The position numbers and the translations under genes were made by a program. From contig LYSY01000004.1 of NCBI GenBank assembly GCA_001657395.1, positions 248,001-312,000 of the forward strand: 64,000 bases of DNA, in the 5' to 3' direction. The stretch comes from Rhodospirillales bacterium BBD 1991-14 (GTDB lineage Bacteria; Pseudomonadota; Alphaproteobacteria; Kiloniellales; Kiloniellaceae). The notes beneath the pieces were generated by a model. It made no database searches and was not told the origin of the DNA. It saw only the letters and a list, made by a program, of their open reading frames with translations. Below are positions 51,452 to 63,609 of the stretch, piece by piece (position 1 is the first letter of the stretch; each line of letters begins with the position of its first letter).

Positions 51452-53236
51452 TCAGTCGGCCGCGATCCAGACCGCCTGGTAGGGGCGAAGTTCGAAGCGG
51501 ATGGTTTCTTCGCCTGGTCGCGCGACGGTCTGCGAGCCGATGAGATCAAGCAGTCTGTCCGCCTTGGGAAAGCCCAGCGTCATGCGGTTGGCTTGGATCT
51601 GTTGCGGTGCGCCCGATACATTGACGGCCACCCAGAGTCTGTCGCCCGCGCCGCAGCGCAGAATGCTGAACACCGACGGAGCGGCCGGCACGACGGTCTG
51701 ATCTGCGTTCGGATGAAAGGCCGGGCGCGTCCGCCGCAGGCGGAGGAGCGCCAGGTGGCCGTCCAGGATGAGTCGCCGCAAGCTCCCTGGATCCGCAAGG
51801 TCCCCCGCCACAGTGGCGCGATCCAGCTTGGCCCGGTTGATCGAACGGTTGCGCCCGGTCCTGGTCACACCGTCCAGGTCGTTGCGCGAACCCAGCAGGC
51901 TGTGAATATAGATCGCCGGCACGCCGATGACGGAGAGGAGAACAGCCTCCGCCGCCAGGAACTTGGCAGCGCGTGTTGCGTCGTCATCATCGGGTGCGGA
52001 AACCGCGTCAACGAATGAGATGTTGAACTCGTAGGGGGCCGTGCCGCCGCCGGGCAGCGCCCTCATGGAGACCAGGCCGCCGGCGGCCTCGACCTTCTCC
52101 GCCATCCCTGCGATCTGGTCCGGGCTCAAAAGGCCTTCTGCCGGCCGCACGCCGATGCCGTCGTGGGAGGCGAGGAAGTTGAAGAACGTGGTGCCGGGCG
52201 CCGGCGGTTCCAGTGCCGCGGCCCAGTCCGAAAGCGGTTGCGCATCGCCGGTCTGAAACGCATAGAGCGTCAGCGGCGGCAGCGGGAACTGATAGACCAT
52301 ATGGGCTTCGTTGCCGCCGTCACCAAAGTAGCCAATGTTGTCGGTGTGGGGCACGTTCGTTTCTGTGATCAGCAGACAGCCGGGCGCCGCTGTGTCGACC
52401 ACCAGACGCATGATCTGGATGAGGGCATGGGTCTCCGGCAGGTGCATGCAACTCGTGCCCAGTTTCTTCCAAAGAAAACCGATCGCATCCAGGCGGATGA
52501 AGCGCGCGCCCCTGTCGGCATAGAACAGGAGCAGGTCGAGGATCTCAAGGAGGACCTCCGGCGTCGCGTAGTTCAGGTCGATCTGGTCGTCGCTGAACGT
52601 GGTCCAGACGTGCGCGCCGCCTTCGGCGGTTTCGACTTCGGTCAGCAGCGGCAGGGCCCGGGGCCGGATGACCTGGCTGTAGTCGGCCCGCGGGTCGCAG
52701 CGATGGAAGAAGCCGCGCCGCGCCGGATCGCCGGCGACAAAGGCCTCGAACCAGGCGCTCTGCCGCGAGACGTGATTGATCACCGCATCGAGCATGATGT
52801 CGAAGTGTTGCGCCAGGCGGGCTATGTCATCCCAGCCGCCGAATGACGGATTGACGGCACGATAGTCGATGACCGAAAAGCCGTCGTCCGAACTCGCAGG
52901 ATAGCAAGGCAGAAGATGCACCGCTGAGACGGCGCCGCTGAGGTGCTCGGCGAGAAAGGCTTCGAGCGCCGCGAGCGGCGCCGTGTCGCCATCGCGGATG
53001 CTGTCGGCGTAGCTGATGAGCACGACGTCGCCATGATCGACCCAGCGTGCGCCGCCATCTCTGCCCCGCTGCGCGACCAGCGCCGCGATCTGTTCCGTAA
53101 GCCGCTCAGTCTGGTCGCTTGCGTAGATGGTCAGCAGCAGAGCCCGCAGCGCGGACTCGAAGGTGGCGCCGGAGCAGCCCGGCAAGATCCCCTGTCCGGC
53201 CGGATCGGACGCTTGTTGACGCCCCGAATGGCTCAT
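51452..53236 (-). CDS. GH13 subfamily 18 sugar phosphorylase (glucosylglycerate/sucrose phosphorylase type)
   Basis: 594 aa. The (beta/alpha)8 motifs are present: HLLPCYPASSDDGFSVIDYR, DAVINHVSRQSAWFEAFVAG, the nucleophile Asp in GARFIRLDAIGFLWKKLGTS, the acid/base Glu in LLITETNVPHTDNIGYF, the third acid in FLASHDGIGVRPAEGLL. The FGDGGNEAHMVYQFPLPPL block is typical of GH13_18. The length (about 590) fits glucosylglycerate phosphorylase (YcjM-like) better than classical sucrose phosphorylase (about 490-505). It would release glucose-1-phosphate from the imported glucoside in the cytoplasm. Divergent from the LacI gene. Confidence 0.85.
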   Translation of the reverse strand: MSHSGRQQASDPAGQGILPGCSGATFESALRALLLTIYASDQTERLTEQIAALVAQRGRDGGARWVDHGDVVLISYADSIRDGDTAPLAALEAFLAEHLSGAVSAVHLLPCYPASSDDGFSVIDYRAVNPSFGGWDDIARLAQHFDIMLDAVINHVSRQSAWFEAFVAGDPARRGFFHRCDPRADYSQVIRPRALPLLTEVETAEGGAHVWTTFSDDQIDLNYATPEVLLEILDLLLFYADRGARFIRLDAIGFLWKKLGTSCMHLPETHALIQIMRLVVDTAAPGCLLITETNVPHTDNIGYFGDGGNEAHMVYQFPLPPLTLYAFQTGDAQPLSDWAAALEPPAPGTTFFNFLASHDGIGVRPAEGLLSPDQIAGMAEKVEAAGGLVSMRALPGGGTAPYEFNISFVDAVSAPDDDDATRAAKFLAAEAVLLSVIGVPAIYIHSLLGSRNDLDGVTRTGRNRSINRAKLDRATVAGDLADPGSLRRLILDGHLALLRLRRTRPAFHPNADQTVVPAAPSVFSILRCGAGDRLWVAVNVSGAPQQIQANRMTLGFPKADRLLDLIGSQTVARPGEETIRFELRPYQAVWIAAD

Positions 53237-53393: not shown

Positions 53394-53464
53394 GTTGCAA
53401 TTGGTTCCGATGTGGGACTACGGTTGTGCAAATAAGAAAAACTCAGGGAGGAACCGCGGAGGCC

Positions 53465-54550
53465 ATGGGCTCGCGCGGAAAAGTGACGATCGACGCGCTT
53501 GCGCGCGAACTCGATCTGGCCAAGAGCACCGTCTCGCGGGCCCTGAACGGCTATCCCGACATTGCCGAAACCACGCGGGCGCGGGTGCAGGCGGCCGCTT
53601 TGGCCTCCGGCTATGCGGCGTCCAGCATGGCGCGCAATCTCAAGCGCGGGCGGGTCGACACGGTTGGTGTCGTGCTGCCCGGCGAACAGCTCGATATCTC
53701 CAGTCCTTTCCTCGTGCAGTTCCTGCGCGGCGCCACCCGCGTTCTGGAAACCCGCGGGATCGACCTGCTGGTCGCCAGCGCCCCGGCGCCCGAGAAGTGG
53801 CGCGAGACCTATGACCGCCTGATCGTGACACGCAAGGTTGACGGCTTCATTCTGACCCGCACGCTCTCCGAAGACCCGCGCGTCGCCTACCTGCGCGAGA
53901 AGGCCGTGCCCTTTGTCGCTTTCGGCCGCACGGCCACATCCGAGAACTTCGCCTGGCTGGATGTGGACTGCGGCGCGGCGGCGGCGGAAGCAGTCGCCCA
54001 TCTGGTCGCCCTCGGGCATCGCCGGATCGCCCACATCACCGCTTCGCCGAACGTCAATTTTGCGCGCATCCGGCGTGAAGCGATTTGCGAGAAGCTGCTG
54101 TCCCTCGGCTTCTACGATCCCGCACTGGTGGTGGAGGTCGGGCTGACCGCCGACGGCGGACGCCGTGCCACCTATGAGCTGATGCGCGGCGAACAGCCGC
54201 CCACGGCGCTGATCTGCGATCTCGATCTTCTGGCCTTCGGCGCCATGGGCGCATTGCGCGATCTCGGCCTGGATGTGGGCAGGGACGTCTCCGTCCTGGG
54301 ATACGGTGACGTGCCGATGGCCCCTGTGCATTCACCACCGCTTAGCACCTGGTCGCAGGACGCCGACAGCGCCGGGGCCTGGGTGGCTGAGATGCTCCTT
54401 GCGCTGATCAGTGGGACGGCGCCGGAGATCCTTCAGAGAGTCAGGCCTGCCGGTTTCGTGCGCCGTGCTTCGGATGGCGCGCCGGCATTGGATACCGCGG
54501 CATTGCGGCAGCGCCTGGCCGAGGTGCCGGCCACCGCTTTCCCGCCATAG
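53465..54550 (+). CDS. LacI-family regulator of the glycoside locus
   Basis: 361 aa from ATG 53465 (AGGGAGGAA upstream). HTH VTIDALARELDLAKSTVSRA with LNGYPDIAETTRARVQAAAL, hinge MARNLKRGRVDTVGVVLPG. Effector domain FLRGATRVLETRGIDLLVAS, AVAHLVALGHRRIAHITASP and VSVLGYGDVPMAPVHSPPLS. It lies between the phosphorylase and the importer and probably represses both until the glycoside or a derivative is bound. Confidence 0.88.
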   Translation: MGSRGKVTIDALARELDLAKSTVSRALNGYPDIAETTRARVQAAALASGYAASSMARNLKRGRVDTVGVVLPGEQLDISSPFLVQFLRGATRVLETRGIDLLVASAPAPEKWRETYDRLIVTRKVDGFILTRTLSEDPRVAYLREKAVPFVAFGRTATSENFAWLDVDCGAAAAEAVAHLVALGHRRIAHITASPNVNFARIRREAICEKLLSLGFYDPALVVEVGLTADGGRRATYELMRGEQPPTALICDLDLLAFGAMGALRDLGLDVGRDVSVLGYGDVPMAPVHSPPLSTWSQDADSAGAWVAEMLLALISGTAPEILQRVRPAGFVRRASDGAPALDTAALRQRLAEVPATAFPP

Positions 54551-54611: not shown

Positions 54612-55955
54612 ATGTCGATTCTCAGACCTCTCGGCCTGATGACCGCGGCGGCGATGATCTTCGCCGCGCAGACAGCCGCGGCCGAGACGATCCGCTTCTG
54701 GACCACCGAAGAACAGCCCGAACGTCTTGCCAAGCAGCAGGCCCTGGCGCAGGAGTTCGAGTCCAAGACCGGCGTGACCGTGGAGGTCATCCCCGTCTCG
54801 GAAACCGACCTCGGCAAGCGCGCGACCGCTGCCTTTGCGGCGAACGACCTGCCGGATGTCATCTATCACACCCTGCAGTACGTGCAGCCTTGGGCCGAGG
54901 CCGGCATCCTGGACATCGACGCCAACACCGAGGCTGTCGAGGAACTCGGTCTCGATACCTTCGCGCCGGGCGCTCTCGCCATGGCAGACGTGGACGGCGA
55001 CACCGCCGCGGTTCCGGTCGACGGCTGGACCCAGATGGTGGTCTATCGCAAGGATCTCTTCGAGGCCGCAGGGCTCTCCGCGCCGGACAGCTATGCCGAC
55101 ATCGTCGCGGCGGTGGAGAAGCTGCACAACCCGCCGGAAGTCTATGGTTTCGTCGCGGCGACCAAGATCGACGAGAACTTCATGAGCCAGGTGCTGGAAC
55201 ACGTTCTGCTGGCCAACGGCGCGACCCCGATGTCGGCGGACGGCATCGCCGGCTTCGAGGAGCAGAGGCTGGTCGAGGCGCTGGAGTTCTACAAGACCAT
55301 CGCCAAGGCTTCGCCGCCCGGAGAGCTGTTCTGGAAGCAGTCGCGCGAGCTCTATTTCGCCGGCAAGGCGGCCATGATCATCTGGTCGCCCTTCATCCTG
55401 GACGAGCTGGCAGGCCTGCGCGATTCGGCGCCGCCCACCATCAACGACGACCCGACCTCGACCGAGCTTGCCTCCAAGACCGGGGTGGTCACCACCTTTG
55501 CCGGGCCCTCCAACCCCGACGGTGCGGCCTGGGCGGACATCCGCTACTTCGGCGTCACCAGTTCCGCCGACACCGACAACGCCATCGAGTTCGTGAAGTT
55601 CTCCATGACCGAGGGCTATGGCCAGACCCTCTCCATCGCGCCGGAAGGCAAGTTTCCGGTGCGCCGGGGCGATGACGGAAATCCCGACAAGTATGTCGAG
55701 CTCTGGTCGACGCTGCCGGTGGGTGTCGACCGCAAGGCGCCGCTGACCGAACTCTATCCGCCAGAGGTGATCGACTCGATCGTGACCGGGCTTGACTCGG
55801 CACAGCGCTGGGGCGTCGAGGAAGGCCAGTTGTCGGCCGCCTCCAAGGTGGTCAACAGCCAGGTCATCAATCAGATCACGCGACGCTTCATCGATGATGA
55901 GATCTCGGCGGCCGAAGCCGCCAAGGCGATCAACGAGGAACTCGGCAAGCTCTGA
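54612..55955 (+). CDS. Sugar ABC transporter substrate-binding protein (family 1)
   Basis: 447 aa from ATG 54612; signal peptide MSILRPLGLMTAAAMIFAAQ with cleavage near AAAE. The mature start ETIRFWTTEEQPERLAKQQA and GVTVEVIPVSETDLGKR are typical of MalE/UgpB-like proteins. FWKQSRELYFAGKAAMIIWS and GYGQTLSIAPEGKFPVRRGD follow. It would bind a glucoside such as glucosylglycerate. A strong hairpin lies 14 bp after its stop. Confidence 0.88.
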   Translation: MSILRPLGLMTAAAMIFAAQTAAAETIRFWTTEEQPERLAKQQALAQEFESKTGVTVEVIPVSETDLGKRATAAFAANDLPDVIYHTLQYVQPWAEAGILDIDANTEAVEELGLDTFAPGALAMADVDGDTAAVPVDGWTQMVVYRKDLFEAAGLSAPDSYADIVAAVEKLHNPPEVYGFVAATKIDENFMSQVLEHVLLANGATPMSADGIAGFEEQRLVEALEFYKTIAKASPPGELFWKQSRELYFAGKAAMIIWSPFILDELAGLRDSAPPTINDDPTSTELASKTGVVTTFAGPSNPDGAAWADIRYFGVTSSADTDNAIEFVKFSMTEGYGQTLSIAPEGKFPVRRGDDGNPDKYVELWSTLPVGVDRKAPLTELYPPEVIDSIVTGLDSAQRWGVEEGQLSAASKVVNSQVINQITRRFIDDEISAAEAAKAINEELGKL

Positions 55956-56052: not shown

Positions 56053-57372
56053 ATGGCAGAAGTTGCGCAAAGCGGCGTCGCCCGGCACGAGGCGGAAACG
56101 GCAGCCCCACCGCAGGGTGTCGGCCCCCTGCAGAGGCGCGAGGCGCGGCTGGCCTGGACGATGCTGGCGCCGACCTTCCTGATCGTCGCCTTGATCGTCG
56201 CTCTCCCCCTTGTCGCCAACTTCTGGATTTCCGCCAAGCCGATCCAACTCGCCGATCTGCGCGCGCCCGAGGCCACCATCAACGAAAGGGTGAGCGGCGA
56301 GGCCGTGGCCGCGGGCGAGACCTTCCGCGTCACCTATACACTGCGCAATTCCTCGCCCAACCTTCCGGTGCGCGGTGCGGCCTTTACCGACACCCTGCCC
56401 GAAGGCGTCGATCTCGCCGTTGACGACGAGCGTTGCGTTCTGTCCGGCCGCAACCTCACCTGCACTTTCGGCGATCTTGAACCGCGCGGCAGGGAGCGGC
56501 TGCACTTCGAGGCGACGGCGCAAACGGATATCGCCAATGTCGAGTCCCTGCTCGAGGGCACGGCGGCCGTTGCCCAGGGCAGGGGTGAGAACGCGCTGAC
56601 CAGCCTGTCCTTCACGGGGGAGAACTTCCGCAAGGTCTTCAATGCCACCGAGTTCTGGGACGTTCTCTGGACGTCGATCCTCTATACCGTCTTCGGCACC
56701 GGCGGCGCCCTGATCCTGGGCCTCTTCGCCGCCTTGCTGCTGGATCAGGCCTTCCGCGGACGGGCCTTCCTGCGCGGTCTCTTCCTCTTTCCCTATGTCG
56801 CGCCCGTCATTGCCGTTGCCTATACCTGGGTGACCCTGCTGGACCCGAACTCAGGGGCGCTCAACGCCATCCTCATGCAGATCGGCGCGACGGAGGGGCC
56901 GATCAATTTCCTGGGCCAGCGCGCCGCGGGCGAGATCAGCCTCTTCGGCCTGACCGTCGAGTTTCCGCTGGCCCTGACGACGGTCATCATTTTCGAGGCC
57001 TGGCGCTACTTCCCGCTCTCCTTCCTCTTCATCCTGGCGCGCATGCAGTCGATCAACACCGACATGTACGAAGCGGCGGAGATCGACGGAGCGACGCCCT
57101 TTCAGCAGTTCTGGCACTTATCGCTGCCGCAGCTGGCAACCATCCTGGCAATCCTCTTCCTGCTGCGCTTCATCTGGACCTTCAACAAGTTCGACGACAT
57201 CTTCCTCTTGACCGGCGGCGCGGCGGGCACACGCACGCTGACGGTGAATGTCTACGAGCAGGCGATTGCGCTTTCGAACATCGGCGCCGGTGCAGCGGTT
57301 GCCGTGGTGGTGTTCTTCGTGCTGCTGGCCTTCGCCCTGGTGTTCTTCCGCTTCTCGCCGAAGGAGGATTGA
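56053..57372 (+). CDS. Sugar ABC transporter permease (MalF-like) with inserted DUF11-like domain
   Basis: 439 aa. The first TM helix is at about 37-58 (MLAPTFLIVALIVALPLVAN). It is followed not by a short loop but by an extracytoplasmic domain of about 100 residues (about 72-175): AGETFRVTYTLRNSSPNLPV, GAAFTDTLPEGVDLAVDD, CVLSGRNLTCTFGDLEPRGR. This is a DUF11/conserved-repeat-type Ig-like fold with two Cys (128 and 137). The MalF-type core with the remaining helices follows, and the EAA loop YEAAEIDGATPFQQFWHLSL. The insertion may contact the binding protein or the substrate. Confidence 0.85.
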   Translation: MAEVAQSGVARHEAETAAPPQGVGPLQRREARLAWTMLAPTFLIVALIVALPLVANFWISAKPIQLADLRAPEATINERVSGEAVAAGETFRVTYTLRNSSPNLPVRGAAFTDTLPEGVDLAVDDERCVLSGRNLTCTFGDLEPRGRERLHFEATAQTDIANVESLLEGTAAVAQGRGENALTSLSFTGENFRKVFNATEFWDVLWTSILYTVFGTGGALILGLFAALLLDQAFRGRAFLRGLFLFPYVAPVIAVAYTWVTLLDPNSGALNAILMQIGATEGPINFLGQRAAGEISLFGLTVEFPLALTTVIIFEAWRYFPLSFLFILARMQSINTDMYEAAEIDGATPFQQFWHLSLPQLATILAILFLLRFIWTFNKFDDIFLLTGGAAGTRTLTVNVYEQAIALSNIGAGAAVAVVVFFVLLAFALVFFRFSPKED

Positions 57373-57373
57373 G

Positions 57374-58624
57374 ATGGCTGCGCTGACCCAGACCGGCGGA
57401 TACGGCCTGCGTTCGGGCCTTGCGGTTGCGGCGCTCGCCGGCCTTTCCTTCGGCCTTGTCTTCATGATCGTCGTGGGCGTGACACTGGCTCTGGTGACCG
57501 GCCTGCCGGCGCGCCCGCCGGTTGGCGCTGCGGCCCTGGCCGGCCTGGCCGCGGCCCTCTTCGTTGCCTTTACGCCGGTCGAAAGGCGCAGCAACCGCAC
57601 GCGCAGCTACGCCGCTTCGATCATGTTTCTGGTTCTTGTGATCTTCTCCCTCGGCCAGGTCTTCGGCCTCCCGCTTAGCGAGGGCAGCATCTGGCAGCTC
57701 ATCGGCCTTGCTGTCTTCATCGGCGTCACCGTGCAGTCGATCTGGCTCTGTGTCGGCGACGCACCGGCCGGAACGGTGCGGCGCTACGATTTTGAGAAGC
57801 TGGTGATCCGCGTACTCAAAGGCCAGGGCTACATCTTCTTCACCGTCTTCGTGGTGCTGCCCTTCTATGTGATGGTGATGACGAGCTTCAAGAGCCAGGC
57901 GGAACTTCTGGCCAATCCGCTCGACTTCTCCATTGACCTGGGCAAGGCGAACCTCTTCGGGAGCTACACCGAACTCTTCACCAAGTTCAACTTCGGCACC
58001 TATATCCTCAACTCTGCCTTTGTCTCGGTCTGCACCGTGCTGGTGACCCTGCTGATCGCGGTGCCGGGGGCCTATGCCGTCGCGCGCCTGCGCTTTCGCG
58101 GCCGCGATGCCTTCGCCCGCTCGATCCTGCTGATCTACATGGTGCCGGCCATCGTTCTGGTGCTGCCGCTCTATGCCGTCTTCAGTCAGCTGGAATTGCG
58201 TAACACGATCCTCGGCCTGCTGATCGTCTATCCGGCCACCACCATCCCCGTCGCGCTCTACATGCTGCAGGGCTACTTCCGCGGCCTGCCGGCAGAGATG
58301 GAGGAGGCCGGTCTGATGGACGGCCTCACGCGCATCGGTGTGATCATCAAGATCACCCTGCCGCTCAGTCTGCCGGCGCTGGCCTCCGTCGGGCTCTATG
58401 TGTTCATGATCGCCTGGAACGAATTTCTCTTCGCCTTCATGTTCCTGGACGATCCGGCCATCTTCACCCTGCCGCGCGGCGTCGCCTCGCTGAACTCCTC
58501 GGAGCTGCCGCGCGAACTGATGATGGGCGGTGCCGTCATCGCCACCGTGCCGATCATGGCGATCTTCCTCTGGCTCGAACGCTTCATGGTTCAGGGCCTC
58601 TCCGCCGGTGCCGTGAAGGGCTGA
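57374..58624 (+). CDS. Sugar ABC transporter permease (MalG-like) with extra N-terminal membrane region
   Basis: 416 aa from ATG 57374, 1 bp after the preceding stop and behind AAGGAGG; longer upstream frames are antisense artefacts of the first permease. Residues 1-135 form about four extra TM segments (LAGLSFGLVFMIVVGVTLAL, AALAGLAAALFVAF, IMFLVLVIFSLGQVFGLPL, LIGLAVFIGVTVQSIWLCVG), absent from standard MalG. The MalG core starts near FEKLVIRVLKGQGYIFFTVF and has EEAGLMDGLTRIGVIIKITL as EAA loop. The extension's purpose is unknown. Confidence 0.82.
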   Translation: MAALTQTGGYGLRSGLAVAALAGLSFGLVFMIVVGVTLALVTGLPARPPVGAAALAGLAAALFVAFTPVERRSNRTRSYAASIMFLVLVIFSLGQVFGLPLSEGSIWQLIGLAVFIGVTVQSIWLCVGDAPAGTVRRYDFEKLVIRVLKGQGYIFFTVFVVLPFYVMVMTSFKSQAELLANPLDFSIDLGKANLFGSYTELFTKFNFGTYILNSAFVSVCTVLVTLLIAVPGAYAVARLRFRGRDAFARSILLIYMVPAIVLVLPLYAVFSQLELRNTILGLLIVYPATTIPVALYMLQGYFRGLPAEMEEAGLMDGLTRIGVIIKITLPLSLPALASVGLYVFMIAWNEFLFAFMFLDDPAIFTLPRGVASLNSSELPRELMMGGAVIATVPIMAIFLWLERFMVQGLSAGAVKG

Positions 58625-58629
58625 GCAGA

Positions 58630-59916
58630 GTGAGCGATCTCGACAAAGCGGCCGAGGCGGTGCTGCGGGCCAATGACCGCGGGGGCTATACCGTTCCCAC
58701 GGCGGGGCTCTATCCCTACCAATGGAACTGGGATTCCGCCTTCGCGGCTTTGGGCTTCGCCGAGTTCGACATCGACCGCGCCTGGCGCGAGCTTGAGACG
58801 CTTGCCGAGGGCGCCTGGCCGAACGGCATGTGGCCGCACATCCTGTTCCGCGCCGATGATCCCGATTACTTCCCCGGGCCGTCGGTCTGGGGCGCCGGGG
58901 CGAGTGTCGGTGCCCCGATTGCCTCTTCCGGGGTATCCCAGCCGCCGGTGGCTGCCACGGTGGCGCGCATCCTCTACGAGCGCGATCCGGAAGTGGGGCT
59001 GGCGCGTCTGCGCGCGCTCTTTCCCAAGCTGCTGGCCTGGCGCGACTGGTTCCACCGCGACCGCCGGGGCCGGAGCGGTACCATCCTGGTCACCCACCCC
59101 TGGGAGTCCGGCCGCGACAACTCGCCGGACTGGGACGGCGCCATGGCCCGGGTTCCCATCCGGGACCTCGGCCCTTTCCAGCGCCGCGATACCGGCCATG
59201 TCGATCCCGCCATGCGGCCCACCAAGGAGGACTACGACCGCTATCTGTCGCTGGTCGCCTGGGGGCGCGAAGCGGGCTGGGACACCCACCGCATCGCCGC
59301 CGAGGGGCCCTTTGCGGTCGCCGATCCGACCATGACCTTCATTCTATTGCGCGCCGACCGCGATCTCCGGGTCCTGGCCGAGGGTCTTGGGGAGACCGAG
59401 GCCGCGGCCCGTCTGGGCGCCGACTGCGAGGCGGGCGCCGAAGCCGCCGCGGCGCTGTGGTCCGAGGACCTGGGCGCCTACGCTGCCCGTGACGAGCGCA
59501 GCGGGGCCTTTGCCGACGGTGTCTCCTCGGCGGCCCTGCTGGCCTGGTACGCCGGCCTGCGCGATCCGGTCCATGAGCAACGCCTGCTCGCCACCTTGCA
59601 TGACCTTCTCGATGCCGCGCCGCTGGCCGTACCCAGCTTCGACCCGCGCCACCCGAAGTTCGACGCGCGGCGCTACTGGCGTGGCCCGGTCTGGGCGGTG
59701 GTGAACTGGATGGTGGCGCGCGGTCTCCACGAGGCGGGCCACACTTCCGAGGCGGAACGGCTGCGCGGCGATACCCGGCGCCTGATCGAGGGAGCCGGCT
59801 TCTACGAGTACTTCGACCCGTGCGACGGCTCCGGCGCCGGCGGGCCGGATTTCACCTGGACCGCTGCGATCTGGCTCGCCTGGGCGAGCCCAACGAAGAA
59901 AGAGGGATGGAACTGA
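58630..59916 (+). CDS. GH63-type glucosylglycerate/mannosylglycerate hydrolase-like protein
   Basis: 428 aa starting with GTG 58630. Family blocks in order: [80 protein letters not shown] and a C-terminal [20 protein letters not shown] with NWMVARGL. In GH63 proteins the Asp of the WDSAF-like block and a Glu/Asp late in the sequence are catalytic. Related enzymes split glucosylglycerate or mannosylglycerate to glycerate plus the hexose. In the same operon as the importer, so the glycoside can be cleaved in the cytoplasm by hydrolysis or by the GH13 phosphorylase. Confidence 0.8.
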
Positions 59917-60974
59917 TGGGCGCTATCAGACTGCAGGCCGTCGAGAAGTGGTTCGGCGACGCGCAGGTGATCAAGGGGGTGGACCTCGACATCGCCGACG
60001 GTGAGTTCGTCATCTTCGTCGGCCCTTCGGGCTGCGGCAAGTCGACGCTCTTGAGGCTGGTCTCCGGATTGGAAGAGATCAGCCGCGGCAGCCTTTTCAT
60101 TGACGACCGCGATGTGACCGCGGAGCCGCCCTCGGGCCGCGGCCTCGCCATGGTGTTTCAGTCCTACGCGCTCTATCCCCACATGACGGTGGGCGAGAAC
60201 ATGGGGTTCGGTCTCAAGACCGCCGGGGCGCCGAAGACGGAGATCGAGAGCAAGGTGGCCGAGGCCTCGCGGGTCTTGAAGCTGGATGCGCTGCTGGACC
60301 GGCGGCCCAAGGATCTCTCCGGCGGCCAGCGCCAGCGCGTTGCCATCGGGCGCTCGATCGTGCGCGAGCCCACGGCCTTTCTGTTCGACGAGCCGCTCTC
60401 AAACCTCGATGCAGCGCTGCGCGTGGAGATGCGGTTCGAGATCGCCAAGCTGCACCAGTCGCTGGGCGCCACCATGATCTACGTGACCCATGATCAGGTG
60501 GAGGCTATGACCCTGGCCGACAAGATCGTGGTCCTGCAGGCCGGGCGGATCGAGCAGGTGGGCAGCCCGCGCACGCTCTACGAACGGCCGGACAACCTCT
60601 TCGTTGCCCAGTTCATCGGCAGCCCGAAGATGAACGTGGTGCCCGGCGGCGTGACCGACAGCCGCTTCGCCTTGCAGGGGCAGGGCGGCGGCCCGGCCCC
60701 CGCCTCCGCGGGCGGCGCCAACCGGGTCGGCATCCGCCCGGAGCATATCGCGCTCACCAATCCCGGCGAGGGGCATTGCAACGGCAAGGTGGAGGTCGCC
60801 GAGTATCTCGGCGCCGACGTGATGCTGTTCGTCGACTGCGATCCCCTGGGGGTCATGACCGTGCGCCATGTCGGGGATACCGCCGTCAAGCCCGGTGAGC
60901 AGGTGGGCCTGCGCTTCGACGAGCAGCGCGTCCACTTCTTCGACGGCGACGGGCTGGCGGTGGGGCGCGCCTGA
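59916..60974 (+). CDS. Sugar ABC transporter ATP-binding protein (MsmK/UgpC type)
   Basis: 352 aa from ATG 59916 (TGATG overlap; ATG 59907 is possible). Walker [10 protein letters not shown] (about 36-44), Q-loop QSYALYPHM, signature [15 protein letters not shown], Walker [18 protein letters not shown]-loop [15 protein letters not shown] regulatory tail with [12 protein letters not shown]. Last gene of the glycoside import operon, convergent with the next cluster across 12 bp. Confidence 0.9.
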
Positions 60975-60986
60975 CGGCGTAAAGCC

Positions 60987-61748
60987 TCAGGCCGTTTCCG
61001 CGCCGCGGAAGGCCCAGCCGACGAAGCGGCGCTCGACCAGGGCGAAGATCGCGTACATGCCCACGCCCATGACCGCGATCACCAGCAGCCCGGCAAAGAC
61101 CAGGGGCACGCGGAAGCTGGAGGAAGCGGTCAGCATCAGGTGGCCCATGCCGGCGTTGCCGGCCACGGTTTCCGAAATCACGGTGCCGACGAAGGCCAGG
61201 GTCACCGCAACCTTCAGCGAAGCGAAGAAGTAAGGCATAGAGCGGGGGACCCCCACCTTCAGCAGGATGTCGATCTTGCGTGCCCCGAGGGAGCGCAGCA
61301 CATCGCGCAGCTCCGGCTCCAGGGTCGCCAAGCCGGTGGCGACGTTCACCACGATGGGAAAGAAGGAGATGGTGAAGGCGGTGAGGATGGCCGGGATGGT
61401 GCCGATGCCGAACCACACCACCAGGACCGGCACGATGGCCACCTTGGGAATGCTGTTGAAGCCCACCAGCATGGGATAGAGCGCGGCATAGGTCAGGGCC
61501 GAGGCCCCGGTGACCAAGCCCAACGCGAGGCCGAAGACCACCGCCATGCCGAAGCCCACGAGGGTCACCCAGAAGGTGTAGAAGGCGTTCTGCCAGATCG
61601 CCGGCCAGTATTGGATCAGGGCCGCCATCGCCTGGCTGGGGGCGGGCAGCACGAATTCGGGAATCGCGAAGAGGTGGACCGCGCCCTCCCAGAAGACGAA
61701 GAGGCCGATGGTGGCGAGCCAGGGGGCGAGCTTGGTGGAGGAGATCAT
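60987..61748 (-). CDS. ABC transporter permease, SsuC/ThiX type
   Basis: 253 aa with about six TM segments. Family pattern PEFVLPAPSQAMAALIQYWP, LYPMLVGFNSIPKVAIVPVL, VWFGIGTIPAILTAF, and the EAA-like LRDVLRSLGARKIDILLKVG. The taurine/nitrate/alkanesulfonate/thiamine-precursor family. Start overlaps the ATPase stop (ATGA). Confidence 0.88.
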   Translation of the reverse strand: MISSTKLAPWLATIGLFVFWEGAVHLFAIPEFVLPAPSQAMAALIQYWPAIWQNAFYTFWVTLVGFGMAVVFGLALGLVTGASALTYAALYPMLVGFNSIPKVAIVPVLVVWFGIGTIPAILTAFTISFFPIVVNVATGLATLEPELRDVLRSLGARKIDILLKVGVPRSMPYFFASLKVAVTLAFVGTVISETVAGNAGMGHLMLTASSSFRVPLVFAGLLVIAVMGVGMYAIFALVERRFVGWAFRGAETA

Positions 61749-62533
61749 GCGGCCCGCACCTCGCCGATGTGGTCGCGCAGACCATGCACCAGGTCGACGA
61801 AATCCTGATCGAAGGTGGATTCCAGGGTGCGCGGCCGCGGCAGGGTGATGGGGCGCTCGTAGACGATGCGCCCCGGGCGCTTGCTCACCACGTAGACACG
61901 GTCCGCGAGATAGACGGATTCGCGGAGGTCGTGGGTGACCAGAATCACGGTGAACTTGCGTTGCATCCAGAGGTCCTGCAGGACGCCCCAGAGCTCCTCG
62001 CGGGTAAAGGCGTCCAGGGCCGCGAAGGGCTCGTCCAGCAGCAGCAGGTCGGGCGCGTGGATCAGCGCCCGGCAGAGCGAGGCGCGCTGCTGCATGCCGC
62101 CGGAGAGCTCGTGCGGGGCATGGTTCTCGTAGCCCTCCAGGCCGACGATCCGCAGCAGTTCGTGGGCCGTCTCTATGTGCTCGGCCTTCTTGCGACGGAA
62201 GCTGCCGCGGTGGCTGCGGCTCACCTCCAGCGGTAGCAGGACGTTTTCCAGCGTGGTGCGCCAGGGCAGCAGCGTGGCGTTCTGAAAGGCCATGCCGACC
62301 ATGGTGAGCGGGCCGGAGACGGTTTCTCCGGCGACCCGGGCGATCCCTGAATCGACCGGCATGAGGCCGGAGACGATCTTCAGGATCGAGGACTTTCCGC
62401 AGCCGGACGGGCCGACCATGGCGACGAACTCGCCGCGGCGGATTTCCAGCGACGCATCCGCGACGGCCGGCGGGCCGTTGCCGGCGCCGCCGTAGGTCAT
62501 GGTCACCTGATCGAGCTCAACGAAGGCTGTCAC
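61745..62533 (-). CDS. ABC transporter ATP-binding protein, SsuB/ThiZ type
   Basis: 262 aa. Walker [10 protein letters not shown] (about 39-47), signature LSGGMQQRASLCRAL, Walker B LLLLDEPFAALDAF, H-loop VTHDLRESV. No TOBE extension, as usual for this family. Acts with the permease at 60987 and the binding protein at 62575. Confidence 0.88.
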   Translation of the reverse strand: MTAFVELDQVTMTYGGAGNGPPAVADASLEIRRGEFVAMVGPSGCGKSSILKIVSGLMPVDSGIARVAGETVSGPLTMVGMAFQNATLLPWRTTLENVLLPLEVSRSHRGSFRRKKAEHIETAHELLRIVGLEGYENHAPHELSGGMQQRASLCRALIHAPDLLLLDEPFAALDAFTREELWGVLQDLWMQRKFTVILVTHDLRESVYLADRVYVVSKRPGRIVYERPITLPRPRTLESTFDQDFVDLVHGLRDHIGEVRAA

Positions 62534-62542
62534 GACTGCAAA

Positions 62543-62573
62543 CGCAATCCTTTAGTACTGAAACAGGATTGCG
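62543..62573 (-). terminator. Intra-operon hairpin after binding-protein gene (SsuABC/NMT1 system)
   Basis: CGCAATCC and GGATTGCG form an 8-bp stem; the loop itself contains TTTAGTACTGAAA, which can fold further. Starts 1-2 bp after the binding-protein stop (62575), before the ATPase ATG. Confidence 0.65.
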
Positions 62574-62574
62574 G

Positions 62575-63609
62575 TCAGGGGGCCAGCATCCGCTCCCCGG
62601 CCGGCGGCAGGAACTCGGACGTCCAGACGGCGGCCGGCTCCGGCGTCGAGGAGAGGTCGTAGGCAATGGCAAGCTGGGCGATGGAATTGCGCAGCCGTGC
62701 CTCGTCGACATCGCCGATGCCGTTGGCCTTCACGTGGTCGGTCAGCACGTTGACGTCGAGGGCCAACTGCAGGCGCTCCAGTTCCAGCCCCTTGTCGATC
62801 AGCGGGTCGCTCTTGGCGACGACGTCGATGGCGCCTTCGGGATCGGCGATGATGTCCTTCCAGCCGCGGATGGTGGCGCGGATGAAGCCGGCCACGGCCT
62901 CGGGGTTGTTCTCGATGAAGTCGCCCGAGGCAATCACCGCGTTGCCGTAAAAGTCCATGCCGAAGTCGGCATAGAGGAAGTACTTGATCTCGTCTTCCGC
63001 GACGCCCTTGGACTTCAGGTCCAGCATGGACGAGAAGTAGTGGCCGGAGATGAAGTCCACCTGGCCCTGGACCAGCATGGTCTCGCGCAGCGCCGGGTCC
63101 ATGTTCACCCGTTCGACCGCGGCCTCGTCGATGCCGGTCTCATGGGCGAAGGCGGGGAAGAGCTTGTAGGAGGCATCGAAAACCGGCGCCCCCAGCTTGC
63201 GGCCCACCAGGTCTTCGGCCTTTTCGATGTTGTTCTTCTTCAGGGTGAAGAGCGAGAAGGGCGGCGCGTCGTAGGCCATCATCACGGCCTTTACCGACTG
63301 GCCGGGGTTCTGGACATTGAAGTCGACCAGCGCGTTGATGTCGGCAAAGCCCATCTGGTAGGCGCCGCCCGCGACCCGGGTGACGGCCCCGGCCGAGCCG
63401 TTGCCGCTGTCGATGGAGACGTCCAGGCCTTCTTCGGCGTAGTAGCCCTTGTCGTTGGCGACGAGGAAGGCGGCCGTGGGGCCCTGGAACTTCCAGTCCA
63501 GAGTAAACTTGATATCCACCTCGGCCTGGGCCGGGGCGGCAGCCAGGGTGAGCGTCAGCGCACAGGCGCCGGCCAGCAGCGCGGGGTGTAGAGCCTTGGA
63601 TTTGAACAT
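62575..63609 (-). CDS. ABC transporter substrate-binding protein, NMT1/SsuA-like
   Basis: 344 aa. Signal peptide LLAGACALTLTLAAAPAQA. Mature start EVDIKFTLDWKFQGPTAAFL, then DKGYYAEEGLDVSIDSGNGS, AGAVTRVAGGAYQMGFADIN: the NMT1/THI5-like pattern that binds pyrimidine thiamine precursors, aromatic or sulfonated compounds. The C-terminal part includes FIENNPEAVAGFIRATIRGW. The substrate is not resolvable from sequence; no thi gene or TPP riboswitch is recognisable in the 317 bp upstream. Confidence 0.85.
   Translation of the reverse strand: MFKSKALHPALLAGACALTLTLAAAPAQAEVDIKFTLDWKFQGPTAAFLVANDKGYYAEEGLDVSIDSGNGSAGAVTRVAGGAYQMGFADINALVDFNVQNPGQSVKAVMMAYDAPPFSLFTLKKNNIEKAEDLVGRKLGAPVFDASYKLFPAFAHETGIDEAAVERVNMDPALRETMLVQGQVDFISGHYFSSMLDLKSKGVAEDEIKYFLYADFGMDFYGNAVIASGDFIENNPEAVAGFIRATIRGWKDIIADPEGAIDVVAKSDPLIDKGLELERLQLALDVNVLTDHVKANGIGDVDEARLRNSIAQLAIAYDLSSTPEPAAVWTSEFLPPAGERMLAP

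Follow-up and report, generated by a model that had tools for sequence, protein, structure and literature searches.

We found that a sugar permease encoded in the window, the 64,000-nucleotide stretch of DNA analysed here, carries a DUF11-type domain with a predicted Ig-like fold between its first two transmembrane helices, and that this domain fills the same periplasmic inter-helix loop as the P2 domain of Escherichia coli MalF. The permease (positions 56053-57372; all coordinates are on the forward strand unless stated otherwise) belongs to an importer of known type, on which the extra domain is a real and conserved variation. The insert is probably an independent counterpart of P2.

The 439-amino acid protein was identified as a MalF/UgpA-type permease from its Pfam BPD_transp_1 domain (residues 220-430, E 4e-14), NCBIfam UgpA/MalF alignments, and PDB matches to SugA and MalF. 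It possesses both the BPD_transp_1 core and the EAA motif of a CUT1 MalF-type subunit, and the MalG-type partner, binding protein, and MalK-type ATPase of a CUT1 operon are all encoded beside it. Relatives were collected by scanning 84,980 species genomes, which yielded 399 candidates at E ≤ 1e-3; the best 80 of these 399 were kept, all of which are at least 54% identical to the permease, and 72 orthologues were aligned. In a global profile alignment of the 72 permeases with 17 MalF proteins, the cytoplasmic EAA coupling loop (YEAAEIDGATP, 57058-57102; conserved columns E340, A341, A342, D345, G346, and A347) pairs with YEASAMDGA of MalF. TM1 (56125-56232; model helix residues 25-60, hydrophobic core 37-55) was located using an AF2 model, hydropathy, and the same profile alignment, in which it is the equivalent of MalF TM3. 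TM2 (56647-56745; residues 199-231) was placed by AF2, and likeness to ordinary permeases restarts from about residue 187, just ahead of it. Since basic residues precede TM1 and the EAA loop is cytoplasmic, the insert lies on the periplasmic side.

Approximately 115 extra residues sit between TM1 and TM2, and the entire loop joining the two helices covers roughly residues 61-198 in the AF2 models. SugA and other solved relatives align at TM1 (residues 27-68) and then again from residue 191, and because these structures skip from 68 to 191, the residues in between are extra. The permease therefore shares the six-helix core and EAA loop of SugA/UgpA-type CUT1 permeases, but differs from them in that their TM1-TM2 loop has no domain. 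A preliminary description of this DNA had allowed ordinary permeases only a few residues at this point; the loop in paralogues is instead about 40 residues long. The distance from the start of TM1 to the start of TM2 is 59-79 residues in the same-genome paralogues that were measured, compared with 175 in the permease at 56053-57372.

Searched with the whole protein, residues 76-163 match DUF11 (PF01345) at 24.6 bits, which equals the Pfam gathering score, and the isolated insert scores 27.7-27.9 bits against the same cut-off. When 59 orthologous inserts were searched alone, 50 matched DUF11 at E ≤ 0.1. No credible match to the insert was found by sequence in the PDB. Together with the confident Ig-like model described below, these scores bear out the earlier proposal of an extracytoplasmic DUF11-like Ig domain between TM1 and TM2 of a MalF-type permease. 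Its suggested limits (56266-56578, residues 72-175) nearly coincide with the folded domain, which we place at residues 74-178 (56272-56586) on the basis of Pfam, the AF2 strands, the model of the domain alone, and Foldseek/VIA neighbours. In the sequence motif that had been quoted, 11 residues, rather than 10, separate the Asn from FTDTLPEGV. The insert resembles the DUF11 domains of surface proteins and adhesins in reaching the HMM gathering score, in its N-x-S/G and D-x-LP signatures, and in a Cys pair found in part of the family; it is unlike them in being a single copy in a membrane transporter, whereas they are repeats in long secreted proteins.

The AF2 model of the full permease, based on the 72-row alignment, has a mean pLDDT of 74.2 and a pTM of 0.52, with parts of the membrane core poor, yet the insert block is mostly above a pLDDT of 90. 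Modelled alone, the insert reached a pLDDT of 85.8 and a pTM of 0.76 with strands at the same positions as in the full model, which points to a separate fold. That fold is predicted to be an Ig-like beta-sandwich of eight strands. The neighbours identified by Foldseek/VIA are Ig-like sandwiches and include the CLIPPER domain of a fibrillar adhesin (E 1.7e-5), CBM2 modules, the alpha-2-macroglobulin receptor domain, and calf domains of integrins, for which VIA gave a Z of 9.8 at an rmsd of 3.5 over 110 residues.

A beta-hairpin within the sandwich (56434-56463) contains Cys128 and Cys137, a pair already remarked upon in the preliminary description and here found to be invariant in all 72 aligned orthologues. 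As strands 128-131 and 134-142 put the two cysteines symmetrically about the turn, we infer a cross-strand disulphide, which would stabilise the sandwich. Downstream of their D-x-LP signature, some canonical DUF11 domains, such as one in L166, carry a comparable pair; the cysteines thus fit DUF11 membership and are not peculiar to the permease.

MalF has eight helices rather than six, the third and fourth being joined by a 180-residue loop (PMC2246101). Its P2 domain comprises residues 91-271 (PMC3150292) and, according to Daus et al. (2009, as cited in PMC3150292), interacts with MalE over the whole of the catalytic cycle. In the global profile alignment, residues 33-62 of our permease pair with MalF residues 61-92 (TM3), and residues 189 onward pair with MalF 261 onward. 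A structure alignment joins residues 25-430 of the model to MalF 57-510, and the alignments to 9bcr_H and 9nxc_H agree. Thus, TM1 here aligns with TM3 of MalF, whose TM1 and TM2 are N-terminal extras that our permease is without, and the insert is located in the very loop that holds P2 in MalF. The preliminary description had located P2 elsewhere, between TM3 and TM4, and in this respect it was mistaken. It was right, however, that P2 is of a different sequence type; profile-profile comparison (hhalign) of the insert with P2 detected no homology (probability 0.3%). P2 has been described as partly Ig-like; our literature search turned up no published account of its fold. MalF is missing among the matches listed by Foldseek/VIA for the isolated domain, which excludes nothing, and where the whole model was aligned, the region is covered at high rmsd. 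In addition to sharing a loop, a permease family, and a periplasmic location, the two domains have the same ratio of divergence to their cores, with a mean pairwise identity of 41% for the insert and 74% for its core compared with 44% for P2 and 75% for its core, in sets that differ in taxonomic breadth. They differ in size (181 residues in P2 and about 125 in the insert).

Given that the insert is P2-like in both conservation and position, our leading hypothesis is that its role is also P2-like, a reading to which we give an even chance. The MalF-like half of a CUT1 importer would have had its TM1-TM2 periplasmic loop replaced by a DUF11-type sandwich, stabilised by the putative hairpin disulphide and exposed to the periplasm where MalF has P2. 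There it may contact the soluble binding protein, assist it in reaching and settling on the permease pair, and relay the docking state to the transporter. The DUF11 module would have been acquired once, independently of P2. In the 80 loci, the insert nearly always has the same set of neighbours, namely the binding protein, partner permease, and ATPase. Counting against a docking role are the lack of sequence homology to P2 and the fact that 17 other permeases in the same genome manage without such a domain. Co-divergence was considered as a sign of contact with the binding protein and was rejected: the partial mirror-tree correlation between insert and binding protein (r 0.30) is lower than that between insert and ATPase (0.43), and so does not discriminate.

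In most CUT1 permeases, the binding protein docks although the TM1-TM2 loop holds no domain, which makes it puzzling that MalF needs P2. An unrelated domain at the P2 site would offer an independent replicate of the P2 case, through which a general function of the loop becomes testable. In our literature search, none of the papers listed was relevant to DUF11 in permeases, and no published description of a transporter bearing this insert was found. A reported parallel is that of the Thermotogales MalG1 and MalG2, which are also maltose-type permeases and in which TM1 and TM2 are separated by a large hydrophilic insert, but there the insert is about 500 amino acids long, is found in MalG, and has no reported similarity to known proteins (PMC2246101).

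The domain might instead be a structural or assembly module, packing against the partner permease at its periplasmic side to stabilise the complex while making no contact with the binding protein. The MalG-type partner (57374-58624) is extended at its N-terminus by about 140 residues (57374-57793) that are predicted to contain four extra transmembrane helices, and the co-occurrence of this extension with the insert favours packing, as does their partial correlation (r 0.29), which is about as strong as that between insert and binding protein. Ig-like domains are also often rigid spacers. We nevertheless consider such a module unlikely, as the insert is located where P2 makes its known contact with the binding protein. 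Furthermore, the insert and the extension both diverge quickly (with a mean identity of 28% in the extension), which does not suggest a single tight, constant interface. The extension has no match in Pfam, and the length of the partner is retained in its orthologues (mostly 401-424 amino acids). Under the P2-like reading, recruitment of a surface-protein DUF11 domain to the P2 position may have given maltose-type importers a second docking module of independent origin which, together with the partner helices, would define a distinct scheme of docking and coupling in marine osmolyte-sugar importers, although we rate this combined scheme at somewhat below an even chance.

No specific evidence favours docking to the cell envelope, and it is quite improbable that the domain anchors the importer by binding peptidoglycan, an outer-membrane protein, or a glycan. 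DUF11 domains do occur mostly in long surface proteins (long frames), and CBM2 and an adhesin domain are among the fold neighbours, but a fold match shows no function, and no conserved ligand-like patch was recognised in the inserts. The inserts lack the aromatic surface expected of a CBM2, most of them being devoid of Trp, and CBM-like sugar binding was rejected on these grounds. A direct part in binding or relaying the substrate is similarly doubtful, as is the idea that the domain is a neutral relic. R96 and R98, each present in 69 of the 72 orthologues, would match an acidic osmolyte like glucosylglycerate, yet the permease at 56053-57372 itself has Thr at position 96. A neutral relic is at odds with the purifying selection under which we find the insert: every computed pair has a dN/dS below 0.5, and most values are 0.06-0.4 (compared with ~0.02-0.15 for the core).

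Conservation of the insert is evident across the sampled relatives. It is present in all 72 aligned orthologues, in contrast to the absence from all relatives that would have suggested an assembly error, and the loop from residue 63 to 187 spans 121-131 residues. Besides the two cysteines, L66, L69, and P116 are invariant, and E78, Y95, R98, N99, S100, S101, D113, and R147 are nearly so. Another species of the same genus has a 97% identical copy, and the gene is missing from six other sampled congeners. Nearly all of the 17 other permeases of the same genome match only the core, from about residue 177-207 onward. Among 398 genomes of the phylum, we found 16 full-length orthologues including that of the window, the others being 57-64% identical; the next matches are at most 39% identical and start at about residue 177-191, and no intermediates between the insert clade and insert-less permeases bridge the gap from 57% to 39%. 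When an insert profile was run against 289 genomes of the class, the domain was found in 8, always in a frame of 423-452 amino acids, with one additional weak match in a 3,202-amino acid frame. The insert is thus the mark of a single orthologous clade, whose importer is common in marine alphaproteobacteria; gammaproteobacterial members were also found (L021 and L071). On five plasmids, the gene is annotated merely as "sugar ABC transporter permease". An assembly or frame artefact has a vanishingly small probability, and we regard assembly error as excluded, given the congeneric copy, the conserved insert, its low dN/dS, and orthologues on 80 contigs (from the best 80 of 399 candidates) and five plasmids.

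A LacI-family regulator (53426-54550, Pfam) lies upstream of the transport genes, as it does in most of the 80 loci. It is followed by a periplasmic solute-binding protein with a signal peptide (SBP_bac_1, 54612-55955), which adjoins the permease in nearly all loci, the permease and its partner, a GH63/MGH1-like hydrolase (58630-59916; MGH1-like_GH, 1.6e-111), and a MalK/UgpC-type ATPase (59904-60974; Pfam and NCBIfam). In most of the 80 loci, the genes from binding protein to ATPase form an uninterrupted block. The hydrolase scores 320.5 bits against glucosylglycerate hydrolase (NF047898), under the curated cut-off of 550, and is therefore a relative only. A divergent gene on the minus strand (51452-53236) encodes a GH13_18-like phosphorylase with TETN and PYEFN motifs, close to the TETN/PYELN motifs of glucosylglycerate phosphorylase (PMC10608839). 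Based on this gene content, the operon likely imports glucosylglycerate or a related osmolyte or glucoside, and the insert would serve as a recognisable marker of a marine alphaproteobacterial importer clade, probably for glucosylglycerate-like osmolytes. The phosphorylase and the GH63 enzyme that flank the importer possibly represent two alternative ways of splitting one glucoside. At a Paroceanicella plasmid locus (L148), the operon has no GH63 gene and an alpha-amylase-family GH13 gene occupies the same place. In Thalassospira marina the gene in the usual GH63 place between partner permease and ATPase (L149:9523-10824) is annotated only as a hypothetical protein. A second ABC importer, of the NMT1/Ssu type by eye, is encoded on the minus strand at 60987-63609 and consists of a binding protein (62575-63609), an ATPase (61745-62533), and a permease (60987-61748).
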